Origin: Tannerella sp.
GTDB taxonomy: Bacteria; Bacteroidota; Bacteroidia; Bacteroidales; Tannerellaceae
Assembly: GCA_031271805.1 (NCBI GenBank)
Contig: JAISUX010000091.1
Coordinates: 29,753 to 93,752 of the forward strand
Length of the DNA stretch: 64,000 nt
Direction: 5' to 3'
The position numbers and the translations under genes were made by a program. Position 1 is the first letter of the stretch, and each line of letters opens with the position of its first letter. Below are positions 18,715 to 26,050 of the stretch, one piece after another. The notes under the pieces are model-generated. The model had not been told where the DNA came from, made no database searches, and saw nothing but the letters and a program-made list of their open reading frames with translations.

Positions 18715-21700
18715 ATGAATTTTCTGTTAGATAGAAAGATTACGATATGTATGTTGTTTTTGGCTCTTACCCTGCTTGGGTACGTGTCATACAAACAATT
18801 ACCCGTCGAACTGCTGCCCAACGCCGAACTGCCTATGCTCTTCGTCACGGTCAACGGGCAGCAGGAAATGGAACCGGCGTACATCGAATCGGAAGTGGTT
18901 ATTCCGCTCGAAGGGGCGATTAGTTCTATCGGCGGCATCGACCAGATACAGTCGGAAATAACAAGCCGCTCGGCAACGATACAAATTGATTTTAAGGCCA
19001 ATATAAACTTCAAGGCAACGACCCTCAAACTTGAAGAAAAAATGAAAGAGGTATCGTCAACCCTGCCGGAAGACTTTACTATCCGCGTGCAAAAAGTCGA
19101 TGTCTCGTCGATGGCCAATGTCTCGTTTATGTCGCTGCAGGTACGTGGTTCGGGCGGTGTGGACAGGGTTCGCAATGTCGTGGACAAGGAAATCACCGCC
19201 GAACTTGAAAATATCGACGGCGTGGCCGCAGTCAATGTTTACGGCGGACGCGAAAAAGCCATAGAAATACGCCTCGACAAACAGGCTTGCCAAGCGCTGA
19301 ACATCACTACTTCACGTATCAGCACACTGTTGAACAGCAATAACCAGGAAAAAATATATGTCGGTAATGTTGTTGAGACCGGTAATCAATACTTTGTGCA
19401 TGTCAATTCGTCATACACAAAAGTCTCCGAACTTGAGAATCTGGTAGTCGCACCCGGCCCCATCCTGCTCAAAGACGTTGCTACGGTATTTTTCGACCTG
19501 AAAGAGGAGACTTCTTACAGCCGCGTCAACGGCAAAGAAGCGATTTCCGTCTCGCTCGCAAACGATTCGCAGGCTAATCTTATAGACCTCTCGCATCGTA
19601 CACGTGACGTCATCGACCACCTGAACGAAAAACTGAGATCTCTGGATGTAGAAATATCTATTGACAGCGACCAGGCCGAGACGATGGAAGAAAATATCGA
19701 CCAGATCATCAACCTCGCTCTTATCGGCGGCTTGCTGGCTGTACTCGTGCTGTGGTTTTTCCTGAAAAACCTGCGGCTGGTATTCTTCATCGCCCTCTCT
19801 ATCCCGATGTCCGTATTTACGGCGTTCAATCTATTTTACTCGGCAGGCATTTCAATCAATAGTCTCACACTTGTCGGAATGGCGCTCGCCGTCGGGATGC
19901 TGCTTGATAACAGCGTCGTCGTACTCGAAAATATTTATCGTCTTTCCGGCACAGGTTTGCCGCCGGAAAGAGCTGTTATTCAGGGAACTAAAGAAGTATG
20001 GCGAAGTATAGTCGCAGCAACCCTGACTACGGTGACCGTCTTCCTGCCATTCGTTTTTACGGATAATTTCCTGATAAAATTAATCGGCGACCATATAGGC
20101 GTGTCGATCATCTCGACGCTCTTAGTGTCAATGGCCGTAGCTCTGCTGTTTATCCCGATGACGGCCTACGTCATTCTCAAACGCAAAAACAGGAACTCGG
20201 TCTTCTATGAAAAAGTTTCGCTCGACCAGCGACCGGTGCAGGCTTATCTCGTGCTCTTGAAAACTTGCCTGCGCAATCCCGGTGCGGTTATTTTCGGTGC
20301 TATTGCGCTGCTTTTCGTTACGTTGATTTTGTCGCTTGCAACTCTTGTGTCTTCAAACCGCGAAGTCGATTCCGACCGTTTCAATATCCAGGTGACAATG
20401 GGCACCGGCAGCACGCTCGAAAGCACCGATAAGGTCGTCAGACTTGTCGAAGAACGCCTGAATGAAGTACCAGAAAAGTTGGATATCATCAGCAGAATCA
20501 ACGAAGAAGAAGCTACCGTAACACTTGTCCTGCAAGAGGATTACAAGAAAATTTCCAAGCGGACGCTCTCCGAAATCAAAGCTGACGTCGAATCGAAGAT
20601 GCCCGATATCGACGGCGGCGATATTAACGTCTCCGACGCCTTAAGCAGCAGTAGTAGCGGAGGTATAGGCGGCGGAAGTAGTAGTATGAGCGGAATGTCT
20701 TCGTTTATGCGATTACTTGGCATCGGCAATAATCAGGAACGGGTAGTCATCAAAGGCGCAGATTACGATATGATGCAACTTGTCGCTGAAGATGTACGCT
20801 ATTTCCTTGATGACCAGGATTTTATCCAAAATTCAAGGGTGTCATATACCCGTCGCCAACCGGAAGTAGTGCTTGATTTTGACCAGATACTGCTCACTAC
20901 TTACGAAATCACGCGCACAAATATCACTCAAGGCCTCGCAAGCCTCAACACCGAATACTCTTCGAATACGACTTTCAAAGTTAATGATGATTCCTACGAC
21001 ATCATCATCCGCGACCAAACCCCTGAAGAAGAGGAAGCCGAGGAACGCAAACAAAAGACTATCAACGATTTGGAAGCTGTGCAAATCGAAAATTCGAGCG
21101 GCGGACTGCATAACCTGAAGGACATTGCAAGCGTGAATCGCGGCTACGGACGCTCGCGCATAACACGTGTCAACCAGGACAAACAGCTCGAAGTGAGCTA
21201 CAGTTTTATCCGAAGCGTGCAGGATTCGAAATCGCTGCTCGAAAGCTACCGTGCCGATATCGACCAACTCGTCGCCAGCTATAACCTTCCTTCCGGAGTG
21301 GCTATCGAAGTTATTCACGAGGAAGATATGTTCGGCGAATTTAAGTTCCTGATTTTAGCCGCTTTCATACTCATTTTCATGATTATGGCCTGCGTATTCG
21401 AATCCGTCACTACACCTTTCGTGATGCTGTTCACAATACCTCTTGCCGCTATCGGCTCACTTGTCGCTTTGGTATTGACAGGCAACAGTCTGTTGAGCGC
21501 CAACACGCTTATCGGGTTCATCATCCTGCTCGGCGTCGTTGTCAACAACGGCATTATCCTCATCGACTATGTAAATATCCTGCGCAGCCGTGGCTTCCGT
21601 CGCGAGAGAGCGCTGATGATTGCAGGCCTCTCACGCATCCGCCCTATCCTCATTACGAGCATTACCACTATCATCGCCATGTTCCCCATGGCTATGGGCG

Positions 21701-23427
21701 ACAACGAATACGCCGGGGCTATCGGAGCGCCTTTCGCCATAACCGTTATCGGAGGACTGTCATTCTCGTCATTGCTGACGCTCGTCCTTATCCCGACCGT
21801 CTATATGGCGATGGAAAATACCTTGGCATGGTATCGCACGCTTTCGATTAAAACGAAGATACTGCATCTTATACTTATACTGGCCGGAATAGCGTGTATC
21901 TATCTCTATACCGACGATCTGCTGTGGCAGTCGATATATCTTGTCGCACTGGTAATCCTTGTTCCGGGCGTCACTTATTTCGCCCAGACAAGCCTGCGCC
22001 GTGCAAAAGCCGATGTGGTCGATCCGAAGAAGGATATCCATATCGTAATACGCAATCTCGTAAAGATTTACGACCGGCCGGGACTGTTCTCGCGCCAATG
22101 GAACAGCGGCTTAGTAATGCGTAAACGCCTCGGACTCACACTCGAATATCATTCGCTCAAAGACTTTGTCGGCCTCAGTTGGCAGTTCATACTATGGGGC
22201 TTCGGGTTTTATTTCACGTATTTTTATCTCGAAAACAAGTTCTGGTGCTTCCTCTTTTCTTTAGCTATGTATTTCTCGACGCTCCACCTGTGGCGGAAAA
22301 TACGCGCTTACCTTTTCTATCGCTTCAAAGGAAGCCGCACGGTGAAGATTCTCAACCGTATAATATTCTGGACCATACCCGTCCTGATCTTAGGCGGCCT
22401 ATACATAAAACTCGAAAGCGTTTCACTGACCGCAATAATCGGCGTACTGATGATTCTGGGGATAATCATCTATATCACATCGCATTATCTCTACGACAAG
22501 AATATCAATATCGAACGAATAAGCGGGAAATATGCCGGCCTGAAACGTTCGTATTTCCACCTCGTAAAACGCATACCTATATTGGGCAAAAGACGGCGCC
22601 CGTTCAAAGCTCTGCGCGGTATTTCATTCGATATCAAGACCGGAATGTTCGGCTTGCTTGGACCTAACGGCGCTGGTAAATCGACCTTTATGCGCATCAT
22701 CACCGGCATACTCGAACAAAGCTACGGCAGCATGTGGATAAACGGCCTTGATACCCGTGTCTATCGCGAGGAACTGCAAAGCCTCATCGGCTTCCTGCCT
22801 CAGGAATTCGGCACTTATGAGAATATGACCTCGACTGAGTTTCTTGATTATCAAGCCATTCTTAAAGGATTAACCAATGACCGTGTGCGCGCCGACCGTA
22901 TTGAGTATGTCCTCAAGGCCGTACACATGTACGAGCGCAAAGACGATAAAATCGGTTCGTTCTCCGGCGGCATGAAGCAACGTATAGGTATTGCACTGAT
23001 ACTGTTGCACTTACCGCGCATCCTTGTCGTCGATGAGCCTACCGCCGGCCTCGATCCTCGCGAACGCATACGCTTCCGTAACCTGCTCGTCGAACTGAGC
23101 AAAGACCGCGTGGTAATCTTCTCGACCCATATCATCGAAGACATATCGAGTTCCTGTAATCAGGTCGTCGTGGTCAATAAGGGCGAGTTAAAATATTTCG
23201 GCGTGCCCGAAAAGATGGTCGATATGGCCGTAGGAAAGGTATGGAAATTCCATATCGACCCCGATTCGTTCGAGGAAAAACTCGATATGTCGCTGGTAGT
23301 AAATAATATACAGGATGGCGATATGATACAAGTACGCTACCTGTCGGTAGGACAGCCCTACCCCGGCGCCGTTCAAGTCGAGGCTAATCTCGAAGATGCT
23401 TACTTATGTTTGTTGAAAAATATGTAG
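18715..23427 (+). CDS. RND efflux permease fused to extra membrane domain and C-terminal ABC ATPase
   Basis: A single 1570-codon frame with no internal stop. Residues 1 to about 1030 form a complete RND permease: MLLDNSVVVLENIYR with Asp398 in helix 4, two large periplasmic loops and twelve helices ending near VLIPTVYMAMENTLAW. Residues about 1031-1290 add some six predicted helices that are not part of a normal RND protein. Residues about 1296-1570 are an ABC nucleotide-binding domain with Walker A Lys1322, signature SGGMKQR (Ser1417), Walker B Asp1440-Glu1441 and switch His1472; all key residues are present. Normal RND proteins stop near 1050 aa. Proton-driven and ATP-driven modules therefore share one chain. 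A 240-aa ABC-2 permease gene follows after 3 bp. The fusion is seen directly; its function is not known. Confidence 0.9.
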   Translation: MNFLLDRKITICMLFLALTLLGYVSYKQLPVELLPNAELPMLFVTVNGQQEMEPAYIESEVVIPLEGAISSIGGIDQIQSEITSRSATIQIDFKANINFKATTLKLEEKMKEVSSTLPEDFTIRVQKVDVSSMANVSFMSLQVRGSGGVDRVRNVVDKEITAELENIDGVAAVNVYGGREKAIEIRLDKQACQALNITTSRISTLLNSNNQEKIYVGNVVETGNQYFVHVNSSYTKVSELENLVVAPGPILLKDVATVFFDLKEETSYSRVNGKEAISVSLANDSQANLIDLSHRTRDVIDHLNEKLRSLDVEISIDSDQAETMEENIDQIINLALIGGLLAVLVLWFFLKNLRLVFFIALSIPMSVFTAFNLFYSAGISINSLTLVGMALAVGMLLDNSVVVLENIYRLSGTGLPPERAVIQGTKEVWRSIVAATLTTVTVFLPFVFTDNFLIKLIGDHIGVSIISTLLVSMAVALLFIPMTAYVILKRKNRNSVFYEKVSLDQRPVQAYLVLLKTCLRNPGAVIFGAIALLFVTLILSLATLVSSNREVDSDRFNIQVTMGTGSTLESTDKVVRLVEERLNEVPEKLDIISRINEEEATVTLVLQEDYKKISKRTLSEIKADVESKMPDIDGGDINVSDALSSSSSGGIGGGSSSMSGMSSFMRLLGIGNNQERVVIKGADYDMMQLVAEDVRYFLDDQDFIQNSRVSYTRRQPEVVLDFDQILLTTYEITRTNITQGLASLNTEYSSNTTFKVNDDSYDIIIRDQTPEEEEAEERKQKTINDLEAVQIENSSGGLHNLKDIASVNRGYGRSRITRVNQDKQLEVSYSFIRSVQDSKSLLESYRADIDQLVASYNLPSGVAIEVIHEEDMFGEFKFLILAAFILIFMIMACVFESVTTPFVMLFTIPLAAIGSLVALVLTGNSLLSANTLIGFIILLGVVVNNGIILIDYVNILRSRGFRRERALMIAGLSRIRPILITSITTIIAMFPMAMGDNEYAGAIGAPFAITVIGGLSFSSLLTLVLIPTVYMAMENTLAWYRTLSIKTKILHLILILAGIACIYLYTDDLLWQSIYLVALVILVPGVTYFAQTSLRRAKADVVDPKKDIHIVIRNLVKIYDRPGLFSRQWNSGLVMRKRLGLTLEYHSLKDFVGLSWQFILWGFGFYFTYFYLENKFWCFLFSLAMYFSTLHLWRKIRAYLFYRFKGSRTVKILNRIIFWTIPVLILGGLYIKLESVSLTAIIGVLMILGIIIYITSHYLYDKNINIERISGKYAGLKRSYFHLVKRIPILGKRRRPFKALRGISFDIKTGMFGLLGPNGAGKSTFMRIITGILEQSYGSMWINGLDTRVYREELQSLIGFLPQEFGTYENMTSTEFLDYQAILKGLTNDRVRADRIEYVLKAVHMYERKDDKIGSFSGGMKQRIGIALILLHLPRILVVDEPTAGLDPRERIRFRNLLVELSKDRVVIFSTHIIEDISSSCNQVVVVNKGELKYFGVPEKMVDMAVGKVWKFHIDPDSFEEKLDMSLVVNNIQDGDMIQVRYLSVGQPYPGAVQVEANLEDAYLCLLKNM

Positions 23428-24388: not shown

Positions 24389-24419
24389 TTTGGAAATATA
24401 AAATAAAGTAGTATATTTG
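24389..24419 (+). promoter_or_regulatory. strong Bacteroidota promoter of the RiPP cassette
   Basis: TTTG (24389-24392), 19 bp, then TATATTTG (24412-24419) is an exact match to the Bacteroidota consensus. Transcription should start near 24425, about 305 nt upstream of the precursor peptide start, leaving a long leader. Confidence 0.75.
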
Positions 24420-24424
24420 CAACG

Positions 24425-24662
24425 AAATTATAAACAATTATGATTTAAGAAACAGAAATAAAAAGTGCGTAATGCACACAAAATAAGACATATAAAATAG
24501 CGTTTGCTATTGTTCGAGATGCTGTGAAATGTAGGAAGTTTCTGGATAGTATCTTTAGAATAAGTCAGCGAATGTCTATGCTTTAGCATGGGTATGACTT
24601 TTCCAAGATACAAGGTTATTCCTACAACCGCACAGCATGGAGAGAGTATCCATGCTTTTTTT
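24425..24662 (+). ncRNA. structured RNA leader or small RNA upstream of the precursor peptide
   Basis: The transcript from the promoter at 24389-24419 would fold extensively. Two small hairpins come first (24465-24468 with 24474-24477; 24496-24501 with 24506-24511). A long rod follows: 24519-24526 with 24631-24638, 24531-24535 with 24621-24625, 24549-24555 with 24605-24611, 24562-24567 with 24595-24600, and a cap 24578-24581 with 24586-24589. All these pairings are perfect. A terminator stem (24634-24641 with 24649-24656) shares bases 24634-24638 with the closing stem of the rod, so the two cannot form together. It may be an attenuator or riboswitch-like leader, or a free-standing RNA; a rod with internal bubbles also recalls 6S-like RNAs. 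The family was not identified. Confidence 0.6.
24634..24662 (+). terminator. Rho-independent terminator at the end of the structured leader
   Basis: Perfect 8-bp stem (24634-24641 with 24649-24656), 7-nt loop, then a run of seven T. It overlaps the 3' strand of the long-range helix of the leader RNA, which could act as an antiterminator for the downstream peptide gene. Confidence 0.75.
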
Positions 24663-24729
24663 GTCTATATCAGATAATGGAGTAGCCGATAGCCAATTAA
24701 AGTGGAGGCGTAACTTTAATATTTTTTTT

Positions 24730-24894: not shown

Positions 24895-24901
24895 AAACTT
24901 C

Positions 24902-24931
24902 GGGGCTGTCCAAAAGCACAGCCCCTTTTTT
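24902..24931 (+). terminator. Rho-independent terminator between precursor and maturase genes
   Basis: GC-rich perfect 8-bp stem (24902-24909 with 24918-24925) and six T. It begins 8 bp after the precursor stop and 36 bp before the maturase start. Partial read-through here would give much more precursor than enzyme, as in other RiPP operons. Confidence 0.9.
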
Positions 24932-24966
24932 ACATCCAAATATACTAACAAACGAGCGTAAATTAA

Positions 24967-25632
24967 ATGAAAAAATTCAACTTATCAATAATAATGACTC
25001 ATCAGTGTAATCTTAAATGTCTTTATTGCTATGAGACAATAAGAAACAAAAAGGTTATCTGCAAAGATACTGCCGTGAATATTATCAGACACTATTTAAA
25101 TAGTAAAGAATATGATGAAATCGAAATAGACTTTTTCGGAGGTGAACCATTTTTAGAATTTCAAAAAATCAAAGAAATATGTGAATGGGTTTGGAGTCGG
25201 AAATGGCGAAATAATTTCCTCTTTTTTACTACAACGAATGGTACTTTGGTGAAGGGCGAAATTAAGGAATGGTTACGAAATAATAGAAAAAGATTTTGGG
25301 TAAGTGTTAGTTTAGATGGAGAAAGAACAAGCCATAATATGAACAGAAGTAATTCATTTGATTGTATAGACATTCCGTTTTTTTACGAATGTTGGCCATC
25401 TCAAACTTTGAAAATGACTATTTCAAAAGAAACAGTCAACAATTTATATAATAACATTACTTATTTGCACTCGATTGGATTTAAAATAACCGGAACTAAT
25501 TTCGCAGAAGGAATAGATTGGGAAGAAAGAAAATTCACAAAAGTTGTCTGCGAACAATTAGATAAATTATGTCGCTATTATATTGATCATCCTGAAATAG
25601 AGCCTGTTCCATATAAATATGCCAATTTATAA
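24967..25632 (+). CDS. radical SAM peptide maturase, N-terminal part (frameshifted gene)
   Basis: A 221-aa radical SAM catalytic domain. The cluster-binding motif CNLKCLYC (CX3CX2C) is at residues 14-21 and binds the [4Fe-4S] that cleaves S-adenosylmethionine; FFGGEPFLEF carries the GGEP SAM-binding motif, and VSLDGERTSHN is a further family block. The frame stops at 25632 after PYKYANL, just where a C-terminal SPASM domain should begin; that domain is found in another frame from 25619. The two parts together give about 360 aa, a normal size for a radical SAM/SPASM maturase. The likely substrate is the Cys-rich peptide at 24730. As the sequence stands the enzyme would lack its auxiliary cluster domain. 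Confidence 0.85.
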   Translation: MKKFNLSIIMTHQCNLKCLYCYETIRNKKVICKDTAVNIIRHYLNSKEYDEIEIDFFGGEPFLEFQKIKEICEWVWSRKWRNNFLFFTTTNGTLVKGEIKEWLRNNRKRFWVSVSLDGERTSHNMNRSNSFDCIDIPFFYECWPSQTLKMTISKETVNNLYNNITYLHSIGFKITGTNFAEGIDWEERKFTKVVCEQLDKLCRYYIDHPEIEPVPYKYANL

Positions 25633-26050
25633 ATGCGAAGAAAAAAAACGAATGACGAAACGATGTGGATGTGGCGAATTGATGGCCGCGTATGAAGCAG
25701 ATGGGAAAAAATATCCGTGTACTTTTTTTACGCCAATGACTTTTAGTGTAGAACAATTGGCAATTATTGACACTATTGATTGGTCAAATGCTGAATACTT
25801 TATTGATGTAGAATGCTTTAACAACTGCTATATAGAGCCAGTATGTAATAGTTGTTACGGTGCAAATTTATTACAAAACGGTAAATTAAATATTAGAGAC
25901 AAAAGTAGATGTGAACTGATGAAAATCCGCGCCGTCTTTTCTGCGGCTCTTGCTGCGAACAGATTTGTGAAAAAACCAACTGATAATTACGAGAACGCAT
26001 TAACAGCAAAAGCGATTCAAAACATCAACAATTTATTCAATAGGATATGA
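25619..26050 (+). CDS. SPASM auxiliary-cluster domain, C-terminal part of the maturase (frameshifted gene)
   Basis: This frame continues the radical SAM gene. It carries CGCGELMAAYEADGKKYPC, the opening of a SPASM domain, then CFNNCYIEPVCNSC (CX3CX5CX2C) and a final Cys in RCELMK: the ligands for auxiliary iron-sulfur clusters that hold the peptide. The codon phase differs from the upstream part by one base (one extra base, or two missing, between about 25600 and 25619). Its stop overlaps the ATG of the following GNAT-like gene, as in a translationally coupled operon. It is more likely a gene fragment than an independent protein, though ATG 25619 could start one. Confidence 0.7.
   Translation: MPIYKCEEKKRMTKRCGCGELMAAYEADGKKYPCTFFTPMTFSVEQLAIIDTIDWSNAEYFIDVECFNNCYIEPVCNSCYGANLLQNGKLNIRDKSRCELMKIRAVFSAALAANRFVKKPTDNYENALTAKAIQNINNLFNRI

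Follow-up and report, generated by a model that had tools for sequence, protein, structure and literature searches.

A leader RNA that precedes phage-defence, surface-protein and peptide genes apparently acts as an on/off switch in gut and environmental Bacteroidota

To our knowledge, few regulatory leader RNAs have been described in the Bacteroidota, which dominate the animal gut. Type III toxin-antitoxin loci of the ToxIN type combine a promoter, a structured RNA, a terminator and a protein gene in one defence-linked unit. Described multi-copy RNAs include Flavo-1 (RF01705), which occurs in Flavobacteriia, partly in 5′ regions (PMC9723704), and the GibS/FopS small RNAs, a family with terminators in Bacteroidaceae whose members consist of an unstructured 5′ seed and a terminator and act in trans (PMC7366714, PMC11697453). 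The leader RNA described here lies in a 64,000-nucleotide stretch of Tannerella sp. DNA (the window), and is compared below with these and other systems. It shares with riboswitches and leader attenuators its leader position, mutually exclusive helices and an intrinsic terminator that uses a strand of the upstream fold, but differs from the known ones in having no known ligand or regulated pathway, and in a cargo of restriction-modification (R-M) systems, exported proteins and RiPPs. With ToxIN-type loci it has in common the promoter-RNA-terminator-gene unit and the link to defence; however, it contains no RNA repeats, and R-M or exported proteins are found in place of a common toxin family. 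Like 6S RNA it forms a long bulged rod with its own promoter and terminator, but it is present in 4-28 copies per genome rather than one, consistently precedes an ORF and conserves alternative folds.

The initial annotation had proposed a 6S-like RNA as an alternative. This is disfavoured not only by the copy number and the constant position 5′ of a gene, but also by a covariance search with RF00013, which detected the E. coli and B. subtilis controls and gave no curated-score match in the window or in its own genome. The statement that no known family is recognisable has held up: Rfam 15 returned nothing at gathering threshold over the RNA in the window or at 34 homologue loci, and nothing convincing at a relaxed E-value. 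The sole Flavo-1 match (in locus L258) lies elsewhere than the leader RNA and does not overlap it. Identity with FopS was rejected on its description, as the structure given for FopS differs from that of the leader RNA, which has no Rfam match. A description of the family was found neither in Rfam 15 nor in the open-access papers searched; large surveys such as PMC8040213 contain further, unnamed candidates.

The layout in the window consists of a promoter, about 235 nt of structured leader, the terminator end at 24662 and a peptide ORF from 24730. Direct reading bears out the initial description of the promoter, which matches the Bacteroides consensus exactly, and TAnnTTTG boxes are found in most homologues 40-100 nt 5′ of the conserved 5′ hairpin. 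The features are as follows.

24389-24419, + strand: promoter of the Bacteroidota housekeeping type (TTTG at 24389-24392, 19-nt spacer, TATATTTG at 24412-24419), direct reading
24465-24477, + strand: 5′ hairpin I, GTGC GTAAT GCAC, from folding; similar small hairpins in close homologues
24486-24511, + strand: conserved AGACATAT followed by 5′ hairpin II, AATAGC GTTT GCTATT, from alignment and folding
24510-24515, + strand: strand a, TTGTTC, which can pair with GAATAA at 24558-24563 and thereby sequester the P4 5′ strand (93.6% of cells paired in the 78-sequence alignment)
24519-24638, + strand: rod with helices P1-P4 and apex, from folding and covariation
24519-24526/24631-24638, + strand: P1, from folding; length varies in the family
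24530-24537/24619-24626, + strand: P2, from folding and covariation
24549-24555/24605-24611, + strand: P3, from folding; length varies in the family
24562-24567/24595-24600, + strand: P4, from folding and covariation
24573-24581/24586-24594, + strand: apex, from folding and covariation
24526-24542, + strand: hairpin A, GAAA/TTTC, whose loop contains the P2 5′ strand, from covariation (71.6% of cells paired)
24614-24629, + strand: hairpin B, GGTT/AACC (GGY/RCC in the family), whose loop contains the P2 3′ strand; covariation at the third pair (UA:39, CG:22)
24585-24600, + strand: apical 3′ strand, partnered with 24573-24581/24562-24567 in the rod or with the tail in the terminator, from covariation and the window partition function
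24634-24662, + strand: tail and intrinsic terminator, with local hairpin arms 24634-24641/24649-24656 and U-run 24656-24662
24678-24709, + strand: second conserved leader element, TGGAGTAGCCGATAGCCA..AAGTGGAGGC, pseudoknot-like, just 5′ of the start codon; recurs 3′ of the RNA in L034, L035, L046, L122 and L139
24730-24894, + strand: cargo, a 54-aa candidate RiPP precursor peptide (MYTQLLNDLI...), from ORF reading
24967-25632, + strand: radical SAM enzyme (PF04055), apparently frameshifted, from Pfam

The candidate precursor has no Pfam match. The split radical SAM gene (24967-26050) likely continues in another frame as ORF 25619-26050, a pseudogene or a sequencing error, and a strong terminator-like hairpin, GGGGCTGTCC..AGCACAGCCCC-TTTTTT (24898-24934), lies between it and the precursor gene. 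The second leader element also occurs alone as GGAGTAGCCGATAGCC..AAGTGGAGGC at L006:1506-1543, about 23 nt before an ATG, where no rod was detected. Elsewhere in the window, a 1570-aa ORF (18715-23427) joins an AcrB-type RND transporter to an ABC ATPase domain, and its neighbours are another RND pump and an HlyD-type protein.

Folding of the 238-nt segment 24425-24662 gives -61.9 kcal/mol, as compared to -44.0 +/- 4.2 for shuffled sequences (z -4.2), and none of 200 shuffles was as stable. Without the tail, the predicted structure contains P1-P4, the apex and the two small 5′ hairpins, in agreement with the rod and hairpins originally described. When the tail is included, the minimum-energy structure pairs the apical 3′ strand (24585-24595) with 24646-24656, and therefore the competition is wider than one between closing helix and terminator. 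In prefixes folded from 24427, rod P1 has a probability of 1.0 up to base 24650; apical-tail pairing reaches 0.87 in the prefix ending at 24656, and in that ending at 24662 the values for rod P1 and apical-tail pairing are 0.55 and 0.39. Forced energies are -59.3 kcal/mol for the rod, -59.5 for the apical-tail terminator and -56.6 for the local terminator hairpin. Rod and apical-tail fold thus lie within 0.2 kcal/mol of each other and the predicted preference flips once the tail is transcribed, by an equilibrium calculation that ignores pseudoknots and kinetics and leaves some energies near ties.

The alignment of homologues for compensatory changes that the initial annotation had called for comprises 78 sequences, in which the tested rod columns were those of P2, P4, the apex and the 5′ hairpin, P1 and P3 being left out because their lengths vary. 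In the rod, 22 of 27 pairs show changes on both sides (237 such cells versus 70.7 in shuffles), and 89% of cells are paired as against 30-43% when slid. The alternative fold joins GAATAA to the TTATTC that follows the 5′ hairpin, and the tail to the apical 3′ strand plus CTTATC; here, double changes occur in 16 of 23 pairs (88 cells versus 18.2) and 90.8% of cells are paired (39-48% when slid). Within it, the tail helix formed by the apical 3′ strand shows double changes in all seven of its pairs, with 95% of cells paired. Since related sequences can exceed shuffles even when unstructured, the greatest weight is given to the slid controls and the types of pair. Hairpin II combines a near-invariant AGCGTTT with stem pairs changed on both sides, and both P2 strands sit in the loops of the small covarying hairpins A and B, so that the core may be a four-way junction with a kissing loop at its closure.

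The initial annotation had the closing helix compete with the terminator. The overlap exists in the window, where the terminator arm 24634-24641 runs into the P1 3′ strand 24631-24638 as described, but the competitor conserved in the family is another one. All of the 101 leaders tested favour the apical-tail helix over the local hairpin (mean -21.5 versus -7.6 kcal/mol), and therefore the closing-helix overlap is real in the window but secondary. The apical-tail pairing is also specific, own tails giving -21.5 and swapped tails -15.7 kcal/mol, and for 13 copies outside Bacteroidales -21.6 versus -13.8 kcal/mol. These pairing energies and the alignment point to the apical/P4 helix as what competes with the terminator throughout the family, the closing-helix overlap being a trait of the window's subclade. 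T-runs of at least four follow the tail in 89 of 103 copies (46 of 100 in the upstream control), and are weak in a few (L044). The family hence has mutually exclusive conserved helices, one of them an intrinsic terminator, as in leaders of the attenuator or riboswitch type. In Flavobacteriia (L256-L261, L263, L264, L266), the loop of a downstream hairpin of the TCACT..GGGTTT..AGTGA type matches the 5′ part of the terminator tail by complementarity, which may provide a further alternative pairing.

We consider it probable that the element is a cis-acting leader RNA of the attenuator class, whose two-state fold controls the gene behind it. In the proposed default state during transcription, the 5′ half would pair with the 3′ half to form the rod, with a four-way and possibly kissing-loop core (hairpins A and B); the rod would hold the apical strand off the tail, and polymerase would read through while the tail stays single-stranded. 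In the second state, TTATTC after the 5′ hairpin would capture GAATAA, and the apical 3′ strand, thus set free, would pair with the tail to form the intrinsic terminator, at which transcription would stop. The choice between the two states would be set by a signal, be it a ligand, a protein, an RNA or the rate of transcription, which would probably act through the core of the rod and the conserved hairpin at the 5′ side. The conserved alternative folds, their positions and their linkage to genes are observed; that the folds switch in the cell, which way each state acts and that a trigger exists are what we infer from them.

The genomic position of the copies is that of a leader. For 88 of 89 copies, the longest ORF in the downstream kilobase shares the strand of the RNA and for one it is opposite, as compared to 56 and 31 upstream (Fisher p about 3e-10). 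Usually, 40-105 nt separate the RNA from the start codon that follows. The original attenuator or riboswitch proposal is thus largely upheld in its mutually exclusive, covarying folds and same-strand gene, though with the apical rather than the closing helix as competitor. A few copies directly follow another gene, with no obvious promoter for themselves, one of them (G483) 14 nt after a gene that we take, from its sequence, to be DUF1016-like; DUF1016-like (putative nuclease) genes are also found directly 5′ of the RNA in L063, L069, L071 and L075. Inspection by eye had shown a minimal ATG-NNN-stop frame ahead of the hairpin in several copies; it is not a general feature, occurring in 29 of 101 (16.9 in shuffled sequences).

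Two subtypes can be distinguished by what follows the terminator. The sequence that links terminator and start codon shows complementarity to the rod 3′ strand in 64 of 95 leaders (z < -2, down to -11), and these leaders contain an extra downstream copy of the rod 5′ strand, which can pair up to the start codon. The resulting second rod is very long, with stability down to about -80 kcal/mol, and we know of no described class with a second rod that reaches the start codon. When leaders of R-M genes were folded, the mean pair probability of the first rod, initially about 0.9, dropped to 0-0.15 as the sequence was extended to the start codon. In this subtype the second 5′-strand copy would displace the first from the rod 3′ strand and mask the start region, which would put translational control on top. 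A read-through transcript would adopt the second rod, such that only young transcripts may be translated, or translation may depend on a factor. Cargo differs between the subtypes, the one with the second rod being found before R-M operons. Among the 95 first genes, Pfam finds N6_Mtase (19), N6_N4_Mtase (11), HSDR_N_2 (7), EcoRI_methylase (6), D12 (6) and C5 methylase (5), counts with possible overlaps between families, whereas the 31 leaders without a second rod have N6_Mtase and D12 once each and none of the other four. Hydrophobic N-termini are encoded by 21 of these 31 first genes but by 6 of the 64 others (p about 9e-9), and the cargo of the terminator-only subtype looks like mostly lipoproteins and secreted proteins, with RiPPs as well. 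The window leader belongs to this subtype (second-rod complementarity z -1.7). The RNAs most closely related to it stand before various unrelated genes, among them those of a secreted protein and a lipid A acyltransferase, and the RNA element is therefore not specific to the precursor peptide.

These observations bear on the possibility that the element is a free trans-acting small RNA, with a terminator that always works, a released 235-nt RNA, and a downstream gene having its own weaker expression. Its own promoter and terminator and the many paralogues per genome, as in the Bacteroides FopS family (PMC11697453), would fit such an RNA. We nevertheless judge it unlikely: a same-strand gene at short distance in 88 of 89 cases is not the independence expected of it, the conserved pairing of the R-M subtype runs past the terminator to the start codon, which would be pointless in a released RNA, and the copy 14 nt behind an upstream gene has no obvious promoter of its own.

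The distribution of the family is patchy. DNA searches yielded relatives both within the genus and from a second family of its order. A covariance model built from the window sequence alone (R1) matched 6 of 41 genus genomes and 33 of 393 sampled Bacteroidales genomes, and one built from the 78 sequences (R2) matched 33 of the 41, the window's own genome having 4 copies and one relative 28; these counts, and the phylum-wide one below, are lower bounds, since the first look scores few candidates per genome, and the E-values are rough because calibration was short. Across the phylum, R2 matched 44 of 395 genomes, including Flavobacteriia, a label inferred from neighbouring genes and the Flavo-1 match. 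An antisense R1 match (25 bits) was excluded as a palindrome effect. The genomes searched were mostly metagenome assemblies. Scanning 84,980 genomes of named species for the pattern gave at least 120 stretches; among the matches listed, 80 of 80 records belong to the Bacteroidota, the majority being Bacteroidales of rumen, horse, termite and oral origin. By sequence and predicted structure, the window leader is one copy of a large unnamed RNA family that is phylum-wide in Bacteroidota. Phage origin was rejected, with one weak viral contig only, and no plasmid match was obtained.

Such a patchy, multi-copy occurrence, with the same RNA before unrelated cargo and a near-identical RNA plus R-M operon in two families, could also be expected of a DNA-level mobility or recombination signal, a folded element marking mobile accessory-gene cassettes that a recombinase moves in trans. 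An IS1595/ISXO2-like transposase adjoins some flavobacterial copies, which would agree with this. This explanation seems improbable to us, as the transcribed strand folds better than its complement for 97 of 103 rods and 35 of 37 second rods, which favours action at the RNA level; the promoter, T-run and roughly fixed start-codon distance are features of leaders, and there is neither a conserved right end nor a consistently linked recombinase. Searches for integron-type attC or recombination sites found no cassette arrays or recombinase beside most copies, the IS1595-like gene lying near some flavobacterial ones, and revealed nothing convincing as terminal inverted repeats around flavobacterial copies. 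The transposase is divergent and just 5′ of the RNA in L256, L259, L260, L264, L327 and L331/L332 (Flavobacteriia; two in one genome), and other copies of it occur without the RNA. There is little chance, in our view, that the element is a constitutive mRNA-processing or stability element that sets half-life through RNase III without signal-dependent switching, since the very long helices, above all the second rod (to about -80 kcal/mol), would make suitable substrates but this would leave the conserved exclusivity of rod and tail, the sequence-conserved 5′ hairpin and strand a unexplained.

A stronger form of the cis-acting attenuator reading, which we put forward tentatively and hold to be rather doubtful, is a riboswitch-like Bacteroidota-wide class in which one common signal (a small molecule, a second messenger, or a stress or phage cue) would turn on a scattered regulon of R-M, surface lipoprotein and peptide genes; the downstream genes share no function that would point to a ligand. 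R-M operon regulation is so far known mostly to be exerted by proteins. With up to 28 copies per genome before R-M systems, exported proteins and RiPP genes, the family would, if the switch works as proposed, provide a shared control layer over phage defence and surface proteins with a directly testable trigger, and would represent RNA-based control of R-M operons. Note also that lipoprotein cargo in the window's order (L023, L035, L282, L288, L292, L293, L305) often opens with a conserved METGDHSNGASPKSLTSRG-like segment before the signal peptide, which may be coding or a further RNA element.
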